Positions 37,362-43,107 of a stretch of DNA of 63,927 nucleotides are shown one piece after another. The stretch is from NCBI GenBank assembly GCA_035764725.1, contig DASTYT010000059.1, positions 1 to 63,927 on the forward strand, in the 5' to 3' direction. The notes under the pieces were generated by a model. That model saw only the letters and a list, made by a program, of their open reading frames with translations. It was not told where the DNA came from and did not search any database. The position numbers were made by a program, and so were the translations under genes. Within the stretch, counting starts at the first letter, position 1; every line of letters begins with the position of its first letter. The DNA is from Candidatus Methylomirabilota bacterium. Its GTDB lineage: Bacteria; Methylomirabilota; Methylomirabilia; Rokubacteriales; CSP1-6.

Positions 37362-38579
37362 ATGATCGGACGGAAGCTGACCGCCGCCGTGCTGGCCGGG
37401 GTCATGGTGGCCCTCGGGCTGGCCTCGGGCGCGCCCGCTCAGACCGTGGTGGGCGTGACCGCCACCGAGATCAAGATCGGGAACACGAACCCGTACAGCG
37501 GCCCCGCATCCGCGTACGGCACCATCGGCAAGACCATCGCCGCCTATTTCAAGAAGGTCAACGACGAGGGCGGCGTGAACGGACGCAAGATCAACTTCAT
37601 CAGCTATGACGACAGCTACAGCCCGCCGAAGGCGGTGGAGATGGTCCGCAAGCTCGTGGAGCAGGACCAGGTTGCCGCGGTGTTCCAGACCCTCGGGACC
37701 CCGACCAACACCGCCATCCACAAGTACATCAACCAGCAGAAGGTGCCGCACCTCTTCGTGGCTACCGGCGCCACCAAGTGGGACGATCCGAAGAACTTTC
37801 CCTGGACGATGGGCTGGCAGCCCAACTACCAGACGGAGGGCCGGACCTACGCGACGTACATCCTGAAGAATCTCCCCGATGCGAAGATCGGGATCCTGTA
37901 CCAGAACGACGATTACGGCAAGGACTACCTCAAGGGCATGGAGGACGGGCTCGGCGCCAACGCGTCGAAGATGATCGTGATGAAGCAGAGCTACGAGGTG
38001 ACGGATCCCACCATCGACTCGCAGATCATCAACCTGAAGAACTCCGGGGCCAACGTCTTCTTCAATGTGACGATCCCCAAGTTCGCCGTCCAGGCCATCA
38101 AGAAGGCGCATGACATCGGCTGGAAGCCCACGCACTTCCTGAACAACGTGTCGAGCTCGCTGGCCACCGTCCTCAAGCCCGCGGGCCTCGACGCCTCACG
38201 CGGCCTGATCACCGCGCTCTACATGAAGGAGATCACGGACCCGCAGTGGCAGAAGACGCCGGCCTACACCGACTGGGTCGCCTTCATGAAGAAGTATTAT
38301 CCGGACGGCGCGCTCGACGATCAGTCGAACGCCTTCGGCTATACGGTGGCCCAGGTCATGACCCTCGTGCTCAAGCAGTGTGGCAACGATCTGTCCCGCG
38401 AGAACATCATTCGGCAGGCCGAGAACTTGAAGAACGTGGAGCTGCCGTTGCTGCTCCCCGGCATCAAGGTGAACACCAGCCCGACGGACCACGCCCCCAT
38501 CCAGCAGGAGCAGCTCGCGAAGTTCGACGGCGAGCGGTGGGCGCTGTTCGGTGAGCTGTTCGAGGCCTATCACAAGTAG
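37362..38579 (+). CDS. livK: Liv-type ABC transporter substrate-binding protein
   Basis: Periplasmic binding protein of 405 residues completing the liv operon. A signal peptide (KLTAAVLAGVMVALGLASGAPAQ) precedes a mature domain starting VTATEIKIGNTNPYSG. IGILYQNDDYGKDYLKG and the helix pair typical of type I periplasmic binding proteins are present. Position directly after both permeases and a consensus ribosome site (AAGGAGGA, 5 nt ahead) imply high expression. The ligand pocket cannot be read by eye. It is only distantly like the orphan binding protein at 5.5-6.8 kb. A hairpin follows its stop. Confidence 0.93.
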   Translation: MIGRKLTAAVLAGVMVALGLASGAPAQTVVGVTATEIKIGNTNPYSGPASAYGTIGKTIAAYFKKVNDEGGVNGRKINFISYDDSYSPPKAVEMVRKLVEQDQVAAVFQTLGTPTNTAIHKYINQQKVPHLFVATGATKWDDPKNFPWTMGWQPNYQTEGRTYATYILKNLPDAKIGILYQNDDYGKDYLKGMEDGLGANASKMIVMKQSYEVTDPTIDSQIINLKNSGANVFFNVTIPKFAVQAIKKAHDIGWKPTHFLNNVSSSLATVLKPAGLDASRGLITALYMKEITDPQWQKTPAYTDWVAFMKKYYPDGALDDQSNAFGYTVAQVMTLVLKQCGNDLSRENIIRQAENLKNVELPLLLPGIKVNTSPTDHAPIQQEQLAKFDGERWALFGELFEAYHK

Positions 38580-38593
38580 GCAGTCGCCAGAGA

Positions 38594-38638
38594 AAGAACG
38601 GGCGGGGTCGGCTCAGCGCCAGCCCCGCCCGTGTTCTT
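38594..38638. terminator. Bidirectional terminator-like hairpin between livK and the NifU-like gene
   Basis: AAGAACGGGCGGGG (38594-38607) pairs with CCCCGCCC-GTGTTCTT (38623-38638) around a 15-nt loop, with a 2-nt bulge. The GC-rich core is flanked by A/T-rich ends (AAGAA/TTCTT), so it can act in both directions. The genes converge here, which suits a shared terminator. Confidence 0.65.
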
Positions 38639-38639
38639 G

Positions 38640-38930
38640 CTACTTGCTGGGCGCGTAGTAGGGATTGGCCCCGGACGCGTGATCGGTGGTGTCCAGCACT
38701 TCCTCTACCTCGGGCAGCTCTTCCTTGATCAGCCGCTCGATCCCGGACTTGAGCGTGACATCGGCGGCCCCGCAGCCCTGGCAGCCTCCGCCCATCTGCA
38801 GGTACACCTTGTTGTCCTTGACGTCGATGAGGTCCACGAACCCGCCGTGTCCGGCCACCGCGGGATTGATCATGTTGTCGATGAGCGCCTGCACCTTGTC
38901 CTTGAGATCGGTCGCCGACTCGTCGCTCAT
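38640..38930 (-). CDS. NifU-like C-terminal domain protein (Fe-S scaffold/carrier)
   Basis: Small protein of 96 residues equal to the NifU C-terminal domain, which assembles or carries Fe-S clusters. The CxxC cluster motif is in GGGCQGCGAADVTLKSGIE; GHGGFVDLIDVKDNKVYLQM is the preceding strand pair. Start ATG 38930 has AAGGAGGA 7 nt upstream; the longer frame to 39236 runs antisense and is not coding. It directly follows the predicted selenoprotein radical SAM gene (26 nt if that gene's TGA is read through), so it could help load its Fe-S cluster. General housekeeping use is equally possible. Confidence 0.88.
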   Translation of the reverse strand: MSDESATDLKDKVQALIDNMINPAVAGHGGFVDLIDVKDNKVYLQMGGGCQGCGAADVTLKSGIERLIKEELPEVEEVLDTTDHASGANPYYAPSK

Positions 38931-38956
38931 GCCTGGCTCCTCCTTGGGCTGCGCCG

Positions 38957-40408
38957 CTAGATCACTACTGTACTTGAATATCCGGTAAGGGCCAACTGGC
39001 CCTTGGTGGGCTCCGCTCAGCAGAACCAGGGCTCGGTCAGCCGCGGCGGACGTCGCCGGTCGGGGGCGAGGCGGGGCGCGAGGGCGGCGGGCGCGGGCGC
39101 GCCGGCGGTCTCGGCGGCGAGCGCGCGCACGCGGTCGAAGGTCACGGCGGCGTCCTCGGCCTTCTGCGTCGCCTCCGCGATCACCGCGGCCGCGCGGGCC
39201 TGCAGCGCGTCCATCCGCGGGTCCGGGTGCGTCCATTGATAGGAGAAGTCGGTCTCCACGAGCCGCCCCAGGTACGGCCGCATCCCGGGATGCGCGGCCA
39301 GGAGCGAGCCCGGAGGCACCAGCAGCCGCAGCGAGTACTGCACCGGGTCCACGTGATCTACCAGGGCGTTCGCCTCCACCCAGTCGAGCATCGCGAGGTA
39401 GTCGGCGAGCGTGGTCCAGGGCGTGAACGCGACCCAGGTCGGGCGCATGTCGAGGCCGGCCGCCCGCAGGGCGGCGAGCGCGGCGTCGATGTCGGCCCGC
39501 GTGTGCCCCTTGTCGAGATGGCTCAGCACGGTGTCGGAGAGGGATTCCACCGCGGACACCACGAAGAGACAGCCGAGCCCGGCCATCTCGCGCAGGAGCT
39601 CACGGCGCTCGAGAAGATGCTCCACCTTGGCGGTGAAGTCCCACGTGAGCGAGGGAAACTCCCGGTGGAGCCGCCGCGCCACCTCGATGGCGTGCCCGGG
39701 CCCATTGAGGAAGTCCGGATCGCCAAAGGTGATGTGCTCGGCGCCCGCCTCGACCTGCTGACGCACGTCGGCCAGCACGACGTCGGCGGGGACCACGAAG
39801 AAACGGCCGCCGTAGACGGGCGGGATCGGGCAATGGCGGCAGAGATGCTTGCACCCGCGGCTTGCCTCCACGTAGCCCACGAGCGAGTGCCGGCCATCGC
39901 GCTCGAGCCGCGCGTAGGTCTTGAGCGAGGGCAGGGCGGAGCGGCTCGGACGCGGCAGCGCGGGTCGCGCGATGTTCGGGCCCACGCTCTCCCCGGCGCG
40001 GCACACACCGGGTATCGGCCCCGAGCGGCCGGCGTCGAGGGCCTCGGCGAGATCGGCGAGCGGCGCCTCGACCTCGCCCCCGATCACGCTGTCCGCGACG
40101 TGGGCCAGCAGGTGCTCGGCGTTGAGCGTCGCGTAGAGCCCGTAGAACGCGAGGTGGCAGGAGGGATTCAATGCCAGGACGCGCTCCGCCACCCCGAGCC
40201 CCACCCGCAGCGCGGTGTGCATGGGCACGGAGATGGCCACGAGGCGGGCGCGCCTGACCTTCTCGGGATCCAGCGGCTCGACGGAGACGTCCAGCACCGC
40301 GGGCTTGAAGCCGCGAGCTTCCAGCACCGCCGCCGGCCAGGCCACCGCCAGCGGCTGATGCCCCAGCTCGTAGCAGGCGATCAGGAGCACCGCGCCTTGC
40401 CCTCTCAC
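38957..40408 (-). CDS. B12-binding-type radical SAM protein with Cys-Sec-Ala-Glu-Pro tail (predicted selenoprotein)
   Basis: Radical SAM enzyme of 483 residues if TGA 39017-39019 is read as selenocysteine, 463 if it stops. The N-terminal part (about 1-145) resembles a cobalamin-binding domain (ACYELGHQPLAVAWPAAVL). The radical SAM core has C186, C190 and C193 in SRGCKHLCRHCPIPP, and a TIM-barrel half follows. The frame reads Trp-Phe-Cys-TGA-Ala-Glu-Pro, then 16 more sense codons and TAG. A perfect hairpin lies 12 nt after the TGA. I recall a named family of radical SAM (seleno)proteins ending in CUAEP or CCAEP, which this matches exactly; I cannot verify the name here. Start is GTG 40408, overlapping the DUF2332 stop by 4 nt. 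No Sec machinery is in the window. Product unknown. Confidence 0.85.
38987..39004 (-). promoter_or_regulatory. Bacterial SECIS-like hairpin after the in-frame TGA
   Basis: Read on the minus strand, AAGGGCC-AGTT-GGCCCTT forms a perfect 7-bp stem with a 4-nt loop. The stem begins 12 nt and the loop 19 nt after the TGA, and the loop has G at its second position. Both fit what is known of bacterial SECIS elements, which must sit just downstream of the Sec codon inside the reading frame. Confidence 0.7.
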
Positions 40409-41843: not shown

Positions 41844-41878
41844 CCACAATATGTGGTGGCCATACGGTGTGTTAGCCT
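41844..41878 (+). promoter_or_regulatory. Promoter with palindromic operator-like site for the MFS exporter
   Basis: An extended -10 TGT-TAGCCT (TAGCCT 41873-41878) lies 8 nt before ATG 41887. About where its -35 should be is the inverted repeat CCACA-ATA-TGTGG (41844-41856). A repressor bound there would block the promoter, as is common for drug exporters. Confidence 0.4.
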
Positions 41879-41886
41879 CGATGGCC

Positions 41887-43107
41887 ATGACCATGCCCGC
41901 CGCTCAGGCGACCGCGCGTCCGGCCGCGCTCGTCTTCATCTTCATCACAGTGATGCTCGACATGCTGGCCCTCGGCATGATCGTGCCCGTGCTCGCGCCC
42001 TTGGTCGCCACATTCCTCGGGGGTGACACCGCCCGGGCCGCGAGCGTCTACGGCCTCTTCGGCACGGTGTGGGCGCTCATGCAGTTCCTCGCCTCGCCGG
42101 TGCTGGGCGCCCTGTCGGACCGGTACGGGCGGCGCCCGGTGATCCTGCTCTCCAATCTCGGCCTCGGGCTCGACTACGTCGTGATGGCGCTGGCGCCGAG
42201 CCTCCCGTGGCTCTTCGTCGGACGCGTCCTGTCCGGTGTCACCGCGGCAAGCGTGCCCACCGCAGGCGCCTACATCGCTGACGTGACGCCGTCGGAACGG
42301 CGCGCGGCCGGCTTCGGCCTCATCGGGGCCGCCTTCGGCATCGGTTTCGTACTGGGGCCCGCGGTGGGGGGCGTCGTCGGCGCGGTGGACCCGCGGCTCC
42401 CGTTCTGGCTGGCGGCGGGGCTGAGCCTGTTGAACTTCCTCTACGGGCTGCTGGTGCTCCCGGAGTCGCTGCCCCCCGAGCGGCGCGCGCCATTCGCCTG
42501 GCGCGCCGCCCACCCCCTGGGCGCGCTGACCTTCTTGCGGACCCAGCCGATACTCTTCGGACTCACCGCCGTGGTGTTCCTCGGCCGCATCGCGCACGAC
42601 GTGCTCCCCAGCACCTTCGTGCTCTTCGCGGGGTATCGCTACGGCTGGGACCAGCGGACGATGGGCTTCTTCCTCGCCGGTGTGGGCGTGAGCACCATGA
42701 TCGTGTCGGGCGGCCTCGTCCAGCCGATCGTGCGCCGGCTGGGGGAGCGCCGCGCGCTGCTCCTCGGGCTCGCCTGCGGCGCGGCGGGCTTTTCCATCTA
42801 CGCCTTCGGCTCCTCCAGCGCCGCCGCGCTGGCGGCCCTGCCCATCATGGCGCTGTGGGGCCTGGCGAGTCCGGCCGCGCAGGCGTTGATGACGCGGCAA
42901 GTGGCGGCCTCCGAGCAGGGGCGGCTCCAGGGCGCGATCGCGAGCATCACCGGCGTCGGGGGCCTCATGGGGCCCGCGCTCTTCACGCTGACCTTCGCCT
43001 ACTTCATCAGCGGGAGCGCCCCCGCGGTCCTGCCGGGGGCGCCGTTCTTCCTCGCCGCCCTCCTGCTGGCGGCGTCGATGGTCCTCACTTGGCGGGTGAC
43101 GCGCTAG
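41887..43107 (+). CDS. MFS drug-exporter-like transporter (TetA/DHA1 type)
   Basis: Major facilitator of about 406 residues with 12 predicted helices. FIFITVMLDMLALGMIVPVL is the TetA/DHA1 first helix. GALSDRYGRRPVIL is motif A, and the segment GFVLGPAVGGVVG near the end of helix 5 is the antiporter motif C. TetA-type proteins exchange drug (often as a metal chelate) for protons. Start is uncertain: ATG 41887 sits 8 nt after an extended -10 box. ATG 41881 and ATG 41851 are in frame but would lie on top of promoter elements. No TetR-type regulator adjoins. The stop shares a CTAG with the convergent dipeptide ATPase gene. Confidence 0.85.
   Translation: MTMPAAQATARPAALVFIFITVMLDMLALGMIVPVLAPLVATFLGGDTARAASVYGLFGTVWALMQFLASPVLGALSDRYGRRPVILLSNLGLGLDYVVMALAPSLPWLFVGRVLSGVTAASVPTAGAYIADVTPSERRAAGFGLIGAAFGIGFVLGPAVGGVVGAVDPRLPFWLAAGLSLLNFLYGLLVLPESLPPERRAPFAWRAAHPLGALTFLRTQPILFGLTAVVFLGRIAHDVLPSTFVLFAGYRYGWDQRTMGFFLAGVGVSTMIVSGGLVQPIVRRLGERRALLLGLACGAAGFSIYAFGSSSAAALAALPIMALWGLASPAAQALMTRQVAASEQGRLQGAIASITGVGGLMGPALFTLTFAYFISGSAPAVLPGAPFFLAALLLAASMVLTWRVTR

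Follow-up and report, generated by a model that had tools for sequence, protein, structure and literature searches.

The closest described relatives of the protein examined here are the ArsL enzymes, radical SAM proteins from the biosynthesis of the arsenic antibiotic arsinothricin. They use SAM as the donor of a 3-amino-3-carboxypropyl group, which arsenite receives, and so form a C-As bond, according to the passages on ArsL in PMC8552651; the aminocarboxypropyl transfer is ascribed to 2024 work of Yao et al. where it is cited in PMC12159101. ArsL-like proteins have a characteristic ending with three cysteines, the motif RCCLKC, which terminates 120 of the 120 such proteins listed out of the 263 found. 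Among the four ArsL-type gene clusters that we examined, arsM is present in those of Alicyclobacillus, Pantoea and Pseudomonas, and ArsN1 in those of Priestia, Alicyclobacillus and Pseudomonas. A second radical SAM family has been catalogued by NCBIfam as NF040546, the CUAEP/CCAEP-tail radical SAM (seleno)proteins, a title that gives no function. Our literature search returned no paper with the word CUAEP and none on the CUAEP family, which may be described in selenoprotein literature outside that search; the passages of PMC13188914 that deal with radical SAM selenoproteins name other families. Here, we analyze a member of this already catalogued family encoded in a 63,927-nucleotide contig of a Candidatus Methylomirabilota bacterium (GenBank assembly GCA_035764725.1, contig DASTYT010000059.1; the whole contig is called the window below). 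As far as the literature search tells, what is new is the hairpin that follows its UGA codon, the association of the selenocysteine (Sec) forms with selA, the co-occurrence with a ligase and the comparison with ArsL.

The gene occupies positions 38957..40408 on the minus strand of the window, starts with GTG at 40408 and is closed by a TAG at 38959-38957; it has 483 codons for amino acids if the in-frame TGA at 39017..39019 (minus strand), which adjoins the codon for Cys463, is counted as a predicted Sec464, as the reading of the frame, the codon comparison and the selA association described below all suggest. Direct reading of the sequence gives a tail frame of TGG TTC TGC TGA GCG GAG CCC, followed by 16 sense codons and the TAG at 38957-38959, which amounts to Trp-Phe-Cys-UGA-Ala-Glu-Pro and its extension; the original prediction, which had described this frame, was right base for base. 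It had also said, correctly, that standard annotation stops at the TGA and drops 20 residues (U-A-E-P plus the 16 others). The product of the ORF tool has 463 amino acids and ends at the TGA at 39019-39017, and WFC is the C-terminus of all 120 database relatives listed (the best 120 of 7997 scored), which end at the TGA codon as a result of the rule that gene callers apply. The records of Sec members thus break off immediately ahead of a position that is always Cys or Sec, and this residue is lost from database searches and expression constructs based on them. One such record comes from a named strain: RefSeq WP_012643191.1 of Thermomicrobium roseum ends at WFC, and on the plasmid of strain DSM 5159 (NC_011961.1; L096:10351-10450 in our numbering of loci) the reading continues after WFC with TGA GCG GAG CCG and a hairpin in the family register. 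Judged from its sequence, this record is probably a truncated selenoprotein. A predicted Sec-form gene is also found in Anaeromyxobacter oryzae Red232 (L075), where selA is present.

Membership in the catalogued family is clear. The window protein scores 701.4 bits against NF040546 (cut-off 500), the match extends over positions 1-467 of the 468 of the profile, the CUAEP motif falls at residues 463-467, and there are no sequence differences that set the protein apart from the family; the CUAEP/CCAEP family given in the original prediction therefore exists and was correctly named. Pfam (at E 0.01) recognizes a radical SAM domain and a B12-binding domain and no others. The radical SAM core (PF04055, 50 bits) comprises residues 181-320 (39449..39868, minus strand) and includes the CxxxCxxC motif C186, C190, C193 (39830..39853, minus strand), which is invariant in 49 aligned members and which we take, from what is known of radical SAM proteins, to carry a [4Fe-4S] cluster. 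The N-terminal B12-binding-like domain (PF02310; residues 8-120, 40049..40387, minus strand) has the fold of AprD4, OxsB and TsrM and passes the Pfam threshold narrowly (33.8 bits vs 32.1), which makes it a putative cobalamin-binding domain. The AlphaFold2 model of the window protein is of high mean confidence (pLDDT 93.6), and the solved structures nearest to it in fold are AprD4, OxsB, MgmA, TsrM and CysS, cobalamin-fold radical SAM enzymes with which it nonetheless shares only 15-20% identity. Confidence in the model is 92 for residues 441-460, 69 for 461-470 and low beyond, and AlphaFold models do not place the Cys463-Sec464 pair, around which the pLDDT is about 69 (58-69 in an ArsL-type protein).

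The family is widespread. Within the phylum Methylomirabilota, 64 of 96 genomes have an NF040546 match above the cut-off, and among the best matches listed, 67 (from 66 genomes) extend to position 467 of the model, each of them with exactly one internal stop, a TGA. For comparison we used a set of 81 genes, composed of the window gene and the best 80 loci kept from 569 relatives; these 80 loci cover eleven NCBI phyla, some of them represented by a single assembly. The Sec forms were seen in Rokubacteria, Chloroflexota, Gemmatimonadota, Thermomicrobiota and Pseudomonadota, the Cys forms in Nitrospirota, Ignavibacteriota, Bacteroidota, Acidobacteriota and Elusimicrobiota, and both forms in Myxococcota. 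One of the Cys forms is that of Candidatus Manganitrophus (L058). A quick tree of 78 CUAEP and four ArsL-type sequences (L055, L076 and L079 were left out as short) implies at least three changes between Sec and Cys.

All 81 genes encode either Cys-Sec or Cys-Cys at this position of the tail. The codon at the Sec position is TGA in 54 of them (50 CUAEP, three CUSEP and one CUTEP) and TGC or TGT in the other 27 (26 CCAEP and one CCAAP), a ratio for which any bias would be toward Cys forms, one of the six search patterns having held the Cys form of the tail. The residues invariant among the 49 aligned members are E459, W461, F462, C463, Sec/Cys464, P467 and Q471, and the Cys forms retain the AEP...Q tail in an uninterrupted frame. 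An alignment had been proposed as the way to look for cysteine at the TGA codon, and it was found there in a third of the genes (27/81). The genome of the window organism, in which the original prediction had called for a search for selA, selB, selC and selD, has all four: tRNA-Sec (selC; 69 bits, gathering threshold 47) and selA are on contig C99, where selB immediately follows selA, and selD is on contig C7. The association also holds between genomes. In the 49 genomes tested, which correspond to 50 of the 80 loci, selA was detected above its cut-off in 21 of the 24 with a TGA gene versus 2 of the 25 with a Cys gene (Fisher p 1.1e-8). The three TGA genomes with no selA above the cut-off (L007, L052 and L061) are all metagenome assemblies, and the two Cys genomes that have one are those of L044 and L079; the L052 (TGA) and L031 (Cys) genomes each have, at the end of a contig, a short match to the final portion of selA. 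In the genome of the window organism a single in-frame TGA also interrupts each of two formate-dehydrogenase-alpha-like matches (G000:C90:3303-4055 and G000:C115:103537-104331, both on the minus strand), both of which are probably further selenoproteins. The stop codon that comes next in frame is itself a TGA in 29 of the 54 Sec-form genes, each of which would then use UGA for Sec and for termination alike.

Downstream of the TGA is a SECIS-like hairpin, AAGGGCC-AGTT-GGCCCTT (38987..39004, minus strand), which spans nucleotides 16 to 33 when counting starts at the T of the TGA; its apical loop is AGTT (38994..38997, minus strand), and of 52 Sec-form genes 41 have AGTT and 11 have AGGT at these positions. 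A stem of at least six pairs is present in 49 of the 52 testable TGA genes vs 7.4 expected from synonymous recoding, and one of at least five pairs in all 52, in a test near a fixed distance that was framed after the aligned hairpins had been inspected; only two of the 27 Cys genes (L079 and L081) have a stem of at least six pairs. The pairing is also maintained by covariation: all 18 diverse sequences of one register retain the six pairs from 17-33 to 22-28, with up to five types of pair at one position, each sequence having been assigned to the better suited of two registers one nucleotide apart. The T. roseum gene stands outside both of these hairpin tests; the peptide that follows its AEP differs, yet it retains six pairs (18-32 to 23-27) together with the loop bases G24-U25, in support of the stem. 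These features make the hairpin a putative recognition site for SelB. An Rfam scan of positions 38500-39500 gave no SECIS family and only chance-level matches to animal, fungal and trypanosome RNA families. As for the two Cys forms with strong hairpins, that of L079, whose genome has selA, is a seven-pair hairpin at the SECIS position. Both hairpins may be relics of a Sec form or be due to chance, and L079 perhaps looks like a recent change from Sec to Cys.

Could the UGA simply be an ordinary stop and the similarity downstream of it a relic? The 120 listed database proteins that all end at this point appear to favor such a view, although they do so by the rule of the gene callers, and when the 51 nt that begin at the codon are compared with synonymous recodings, their fold energy does not separate the TGA from the Cys genes (Mann-Whitney p 0.12). 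But an ordinary stop would leave unexplained the Cys codons in 27 of 81 genes, the association with selA and the covarying hairpin, as well as the maintenance of the AEP...Q tail in Cys forms that are read straight through, and we consider it very improbable. On this sequence evidence the window gene almost certainly encodes a selenoprotein with a predicted Sec at the in-frame UGA. The selenocysteine assignment of the original prediction is thus well supported by the presence of selABCD, by the Cys versions at the same codon and by the conserved hairpin downstream; neither of the two findings that it had named as counting against it, a lack of selABCD and a lack of Cys versions, was made.

What, then, does the protein do? 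After NF040546, the family nearest to it is ArsL (NF040542), with 332.1 bits over residues 7-412, and the third-best family reaches 45 bits. The ArsL score is nevertheless below the cut-off of 450, and the window protein is 32.5-40.8% identical to 16 RCCLKC/ArsL proteins encoded on plasmids. When 124 ArsL-like proteins were aligned with 78 of the 81 CUAEP proteins (three short ones were left out), 66 positions of the window protein were common to both groups at >90%. Past residue 424 the only positions among these 66 are C463 and C464, which lie opposite the CC of the ArsL RCCLKC, a pairing across a long gap that is the placement chosen by MAFFT. The two tails otherwise differ: ArsL has its motif with three cysteines at the very end of the chain, whereas the window protein has a Cys-Sec pair within CUAEP that follows a linker of about 50 residues. 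Moreover, the two families are fixed differently at 23 positions, from which it follows that the window protein is not ArsL itself and that its substrate or reaction may differ.

A second resemblance to the ArsL systems lies in the gene neighborhood. The commonest same-strand neighbor of the CUAEP gene is an ATP-grasp gene, which is downstream of it in 44 of the 81 loci. The remaining loci consist of 14 whose contigs leave little space and 23, the window included, with more than 2.5 kb downstream and no ATP-grasp gene on the same strand; the Chloroflexota account for none of the positive loci (0/15, of which six are on short contigs and three have such a gene on the other strand). In the genome of the window organism an ATP-grasp gene is located on a different contig, C1, and its product is 64% identical to the query; its best solved relative is the L-amino acid ligase BL00235 (3vot; E 8e-40, residues 51-397), and the homologue from L047 has the L-amino acid ligase C-terminal domain LAL_C2. 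Across the 96 genomes of the phylum, the ligase is present in 62 of the 68 with the radical SAM gene (counted at E <1e-40) vs 5 of the 28 without it (p 3.6e-12, by a test that ignores relatedness). When the Methylomirabilota family that is mostly missing both genes is set aside, the corresponding figures for ligase present and absent are 62/5 vs 4/10 (p 1.2e-6), and in the 54 better genomes the ligase occurs in 40 of 42 vs 2 of 12. An ATP-grasp gene is likewise present in three of the four ArsL-type clusters (Priestia, Alicyclobacillus and Pantoea, but not Pseudomonas). The ATP-grasp proteins of those clusters and of the CUAEP loci are only about 25% identical, and the association of a radical SAM protein with an ATP-grasp protein may for this reason have arisen twice which, if so, would speak for an amino acid as the product of the radical SAM protein.

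The surroundings differ in their arsenic genes. Where ArsL clusters hold ars genes, the CUAEP genes rarely adjoin them: when the proteins of the four ArsL-type plasmid clusters were searched against the ORFs of at least 80 aa in the 81 loci, ArsM-like proteins were found in three loci, ArsR-like in two and ArsC-like in one, and ArsN1, ArsQ and ArsB had no match in any of the 81. The best arsenic-linked CUAEP locus is L052 of the Chloroflexota, in which an amino-acid-type transporter (below its cut-off), an arsenite methyltransferase (ArsM, 308 bits vs a cut-off of 263) and ArsR stand in a row (L052:4348-6507, minus strand) near the CUAEP gene and an ATP-grasp gene, an arrangement much like that of an ArsL cluster.

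Genes for iron proteins are common neighbors. Directly downstream of the window gene is a gene for a NifU-like protein (similar to the C-terminal part of NfuA; 38640..38930, minus strand; PF01106, 83 bits), which has its own Shine-Dalgarno-like sequence, AAGGAGGAG. By clustering, a NifU-like gene occupies this directly downstream place in 33 of the 81 loci, in Rokubacteria, Ignavibacteriota and Bacteroidota, and BLAST adds a NifU-like neighbor in L022 and L030. A gene for an Fe(2+)-trafficking (YggX-like) protein is directly upstream in 14 loci (10 Chloroflexota, three Myxococcota and one Pseudomonadota), and DUF169 adjoins the gene in 13 Nitrospirota loci, upstream in seven and downstream in six. 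Taken together, same-strand genes of these three kinds (NifU-like, YggX and DUF169) directly adjoin the CUAEP gene in 60 of the 81 loci. In 18 Rokubacteria loci (e.g., L005, L006 and L013) a CDGSH iron-sulfur gene is upstream on the opposite strand, directly so in 17; a DUF2332 gene takes its place in the window. We infer that these iron-protein neighbors provide cluster upkeep for an oxygen-sensitive enzyme.

The sequence kinship with ArsL and the shared ATP-grasp partners lead us to propose ArsL-type chemistry for the window protein, to which we give a probability of roughly 0.4: a soft element gripped by Cys463-Sec464, perhaps arsenic, would receive the 3-amino-3-carboxypropyl group from SAM. 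Sec would be inserted by SelB with tRNA-Sec after recognition of the hairpin that lies 16-33 nt from the UGA, and the cluster presumably carried by CxxxCxxC would bind SAM. The C-terminal arm, with its invariant W-F-C-U/C after a variable linker, may then grip a thiophilic element and offer it to the SAM-derived carbon radical, a step suggested by the vicinal pair being the only feature of the tail that is kept in ArsL too. The transfer would yield a non-protein amino acid. To judge from its relatives and its co-occurrence, the ATP-grasp ligase may join this product to another amino acid, while the adjacent NifU-like, YggX-like, CDGSH or DUF169 genes would tend the iron-sulfur cluster. Arsenic would be the obvious choice of acceptor but is barely reflected in the loci; antimony, selenide, sulfide and phosphite are other candidates. 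The ArsL kinship and the ATP-grasp partner at least give a protein of unknown function a testable reaction. In its fullest version, with Cys-Sec as a metalloid-gripping catalytic arm and the ATP-grasp enzyme capping an organometalloid amino acid as a dipeptide, in an uncharted pathway of at least eleven phyla, the proposal is speculative and we regard it as doubtful. Were it true, a protein would be using selenium to offer a metalloid to radical chemistry, uncultivated bacteria of soil and groundwater would hold relatives of arsinothricin-like compounds, and an organometalloid pathway would be known mostly from metagenome assemblies.

The neighboring iron proteins are no less compatible with other radical SAM reactions, a point against the ArsL-type reading, and two other roles for the Cys-Sec pair must be weighed; the original prediction, which named no reaction, had suggested a redox or metal-binding arm. 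In thioredoxin reductase and ribonucleotide reductase a C-terminal arm re-reduces the active site. By analogy, if the enzyme is a methyltransferase or dehydratase of the B12-type radical SAM class, a selenenylsulfide formed by Cys463 and Sec464 might re-reduce its active site or its bound cobalamin, and such a redox arm would agree with the location of the vicinal pair near the C-terminus after a variable linker, with the B12-binding-like domain and with the best-matching folds (AprD4, OxsB, TsrM, MgmA and CysS). The likeness to thioredoxin reductase is, however, confined to the Cys-Sec pair near the end, the FAD and NAD(P)H domains being absent from the window protein according to Pfam; no partner reductase was present among the conserved neighbor clusters looked at, and it is ArsL, not a methylase family, that is closest by far and that keeps the vicinal pair for the formation of a C-As bond. 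This role is possible, if somewhat unlikely. The pair could also serve as a ligand to metal, in that Cys463 and Sec464 would complete or protect an iron-sulfur cluster, or would receive one from the neighboring iron proteins, for which the 60 loci with adjacent same-strand NifU-like, YggX or DUF169 genes and the 18 Rokubacteria loci with CDGSH speak. Yet two ligands alone make no cluster, the four ArsL-type clusters have the vicinal pair without such iron neighbors (by annotated name), and general cluster upkeep accounts for these neighbors too; we hold a ligand function to be distinctly unlikely. Of these three roles, then, ArsL-type transfer is the one we prefer, ahead of the redox arm and of the cluster ligand.

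Some other neighbors of the gene are of more local interest. The DUF2332 gene (PF10094; 40405..41433, minus strand) overlaps the start of the radical SAM gene in the sequence GTGA, and was rejected as a conserved partner, there being no BLAST match to it (E 1e-4) among the ORFs of the 80 other loci. The window also has a gene for an MFS transporter similar to the Tet(A) type (41851-43107, plus strand; 301 bits vs a cut-off of 475), and transporters like it are not conserved beside the relatives. At L052:6557-7501 (minus strand) is a formyltransferase-like gene, the one of its kind that was scanned, whose cluster is found upstream and on the opposite strand in 10 of the 81 loci, nine of them in Chloroflexota.
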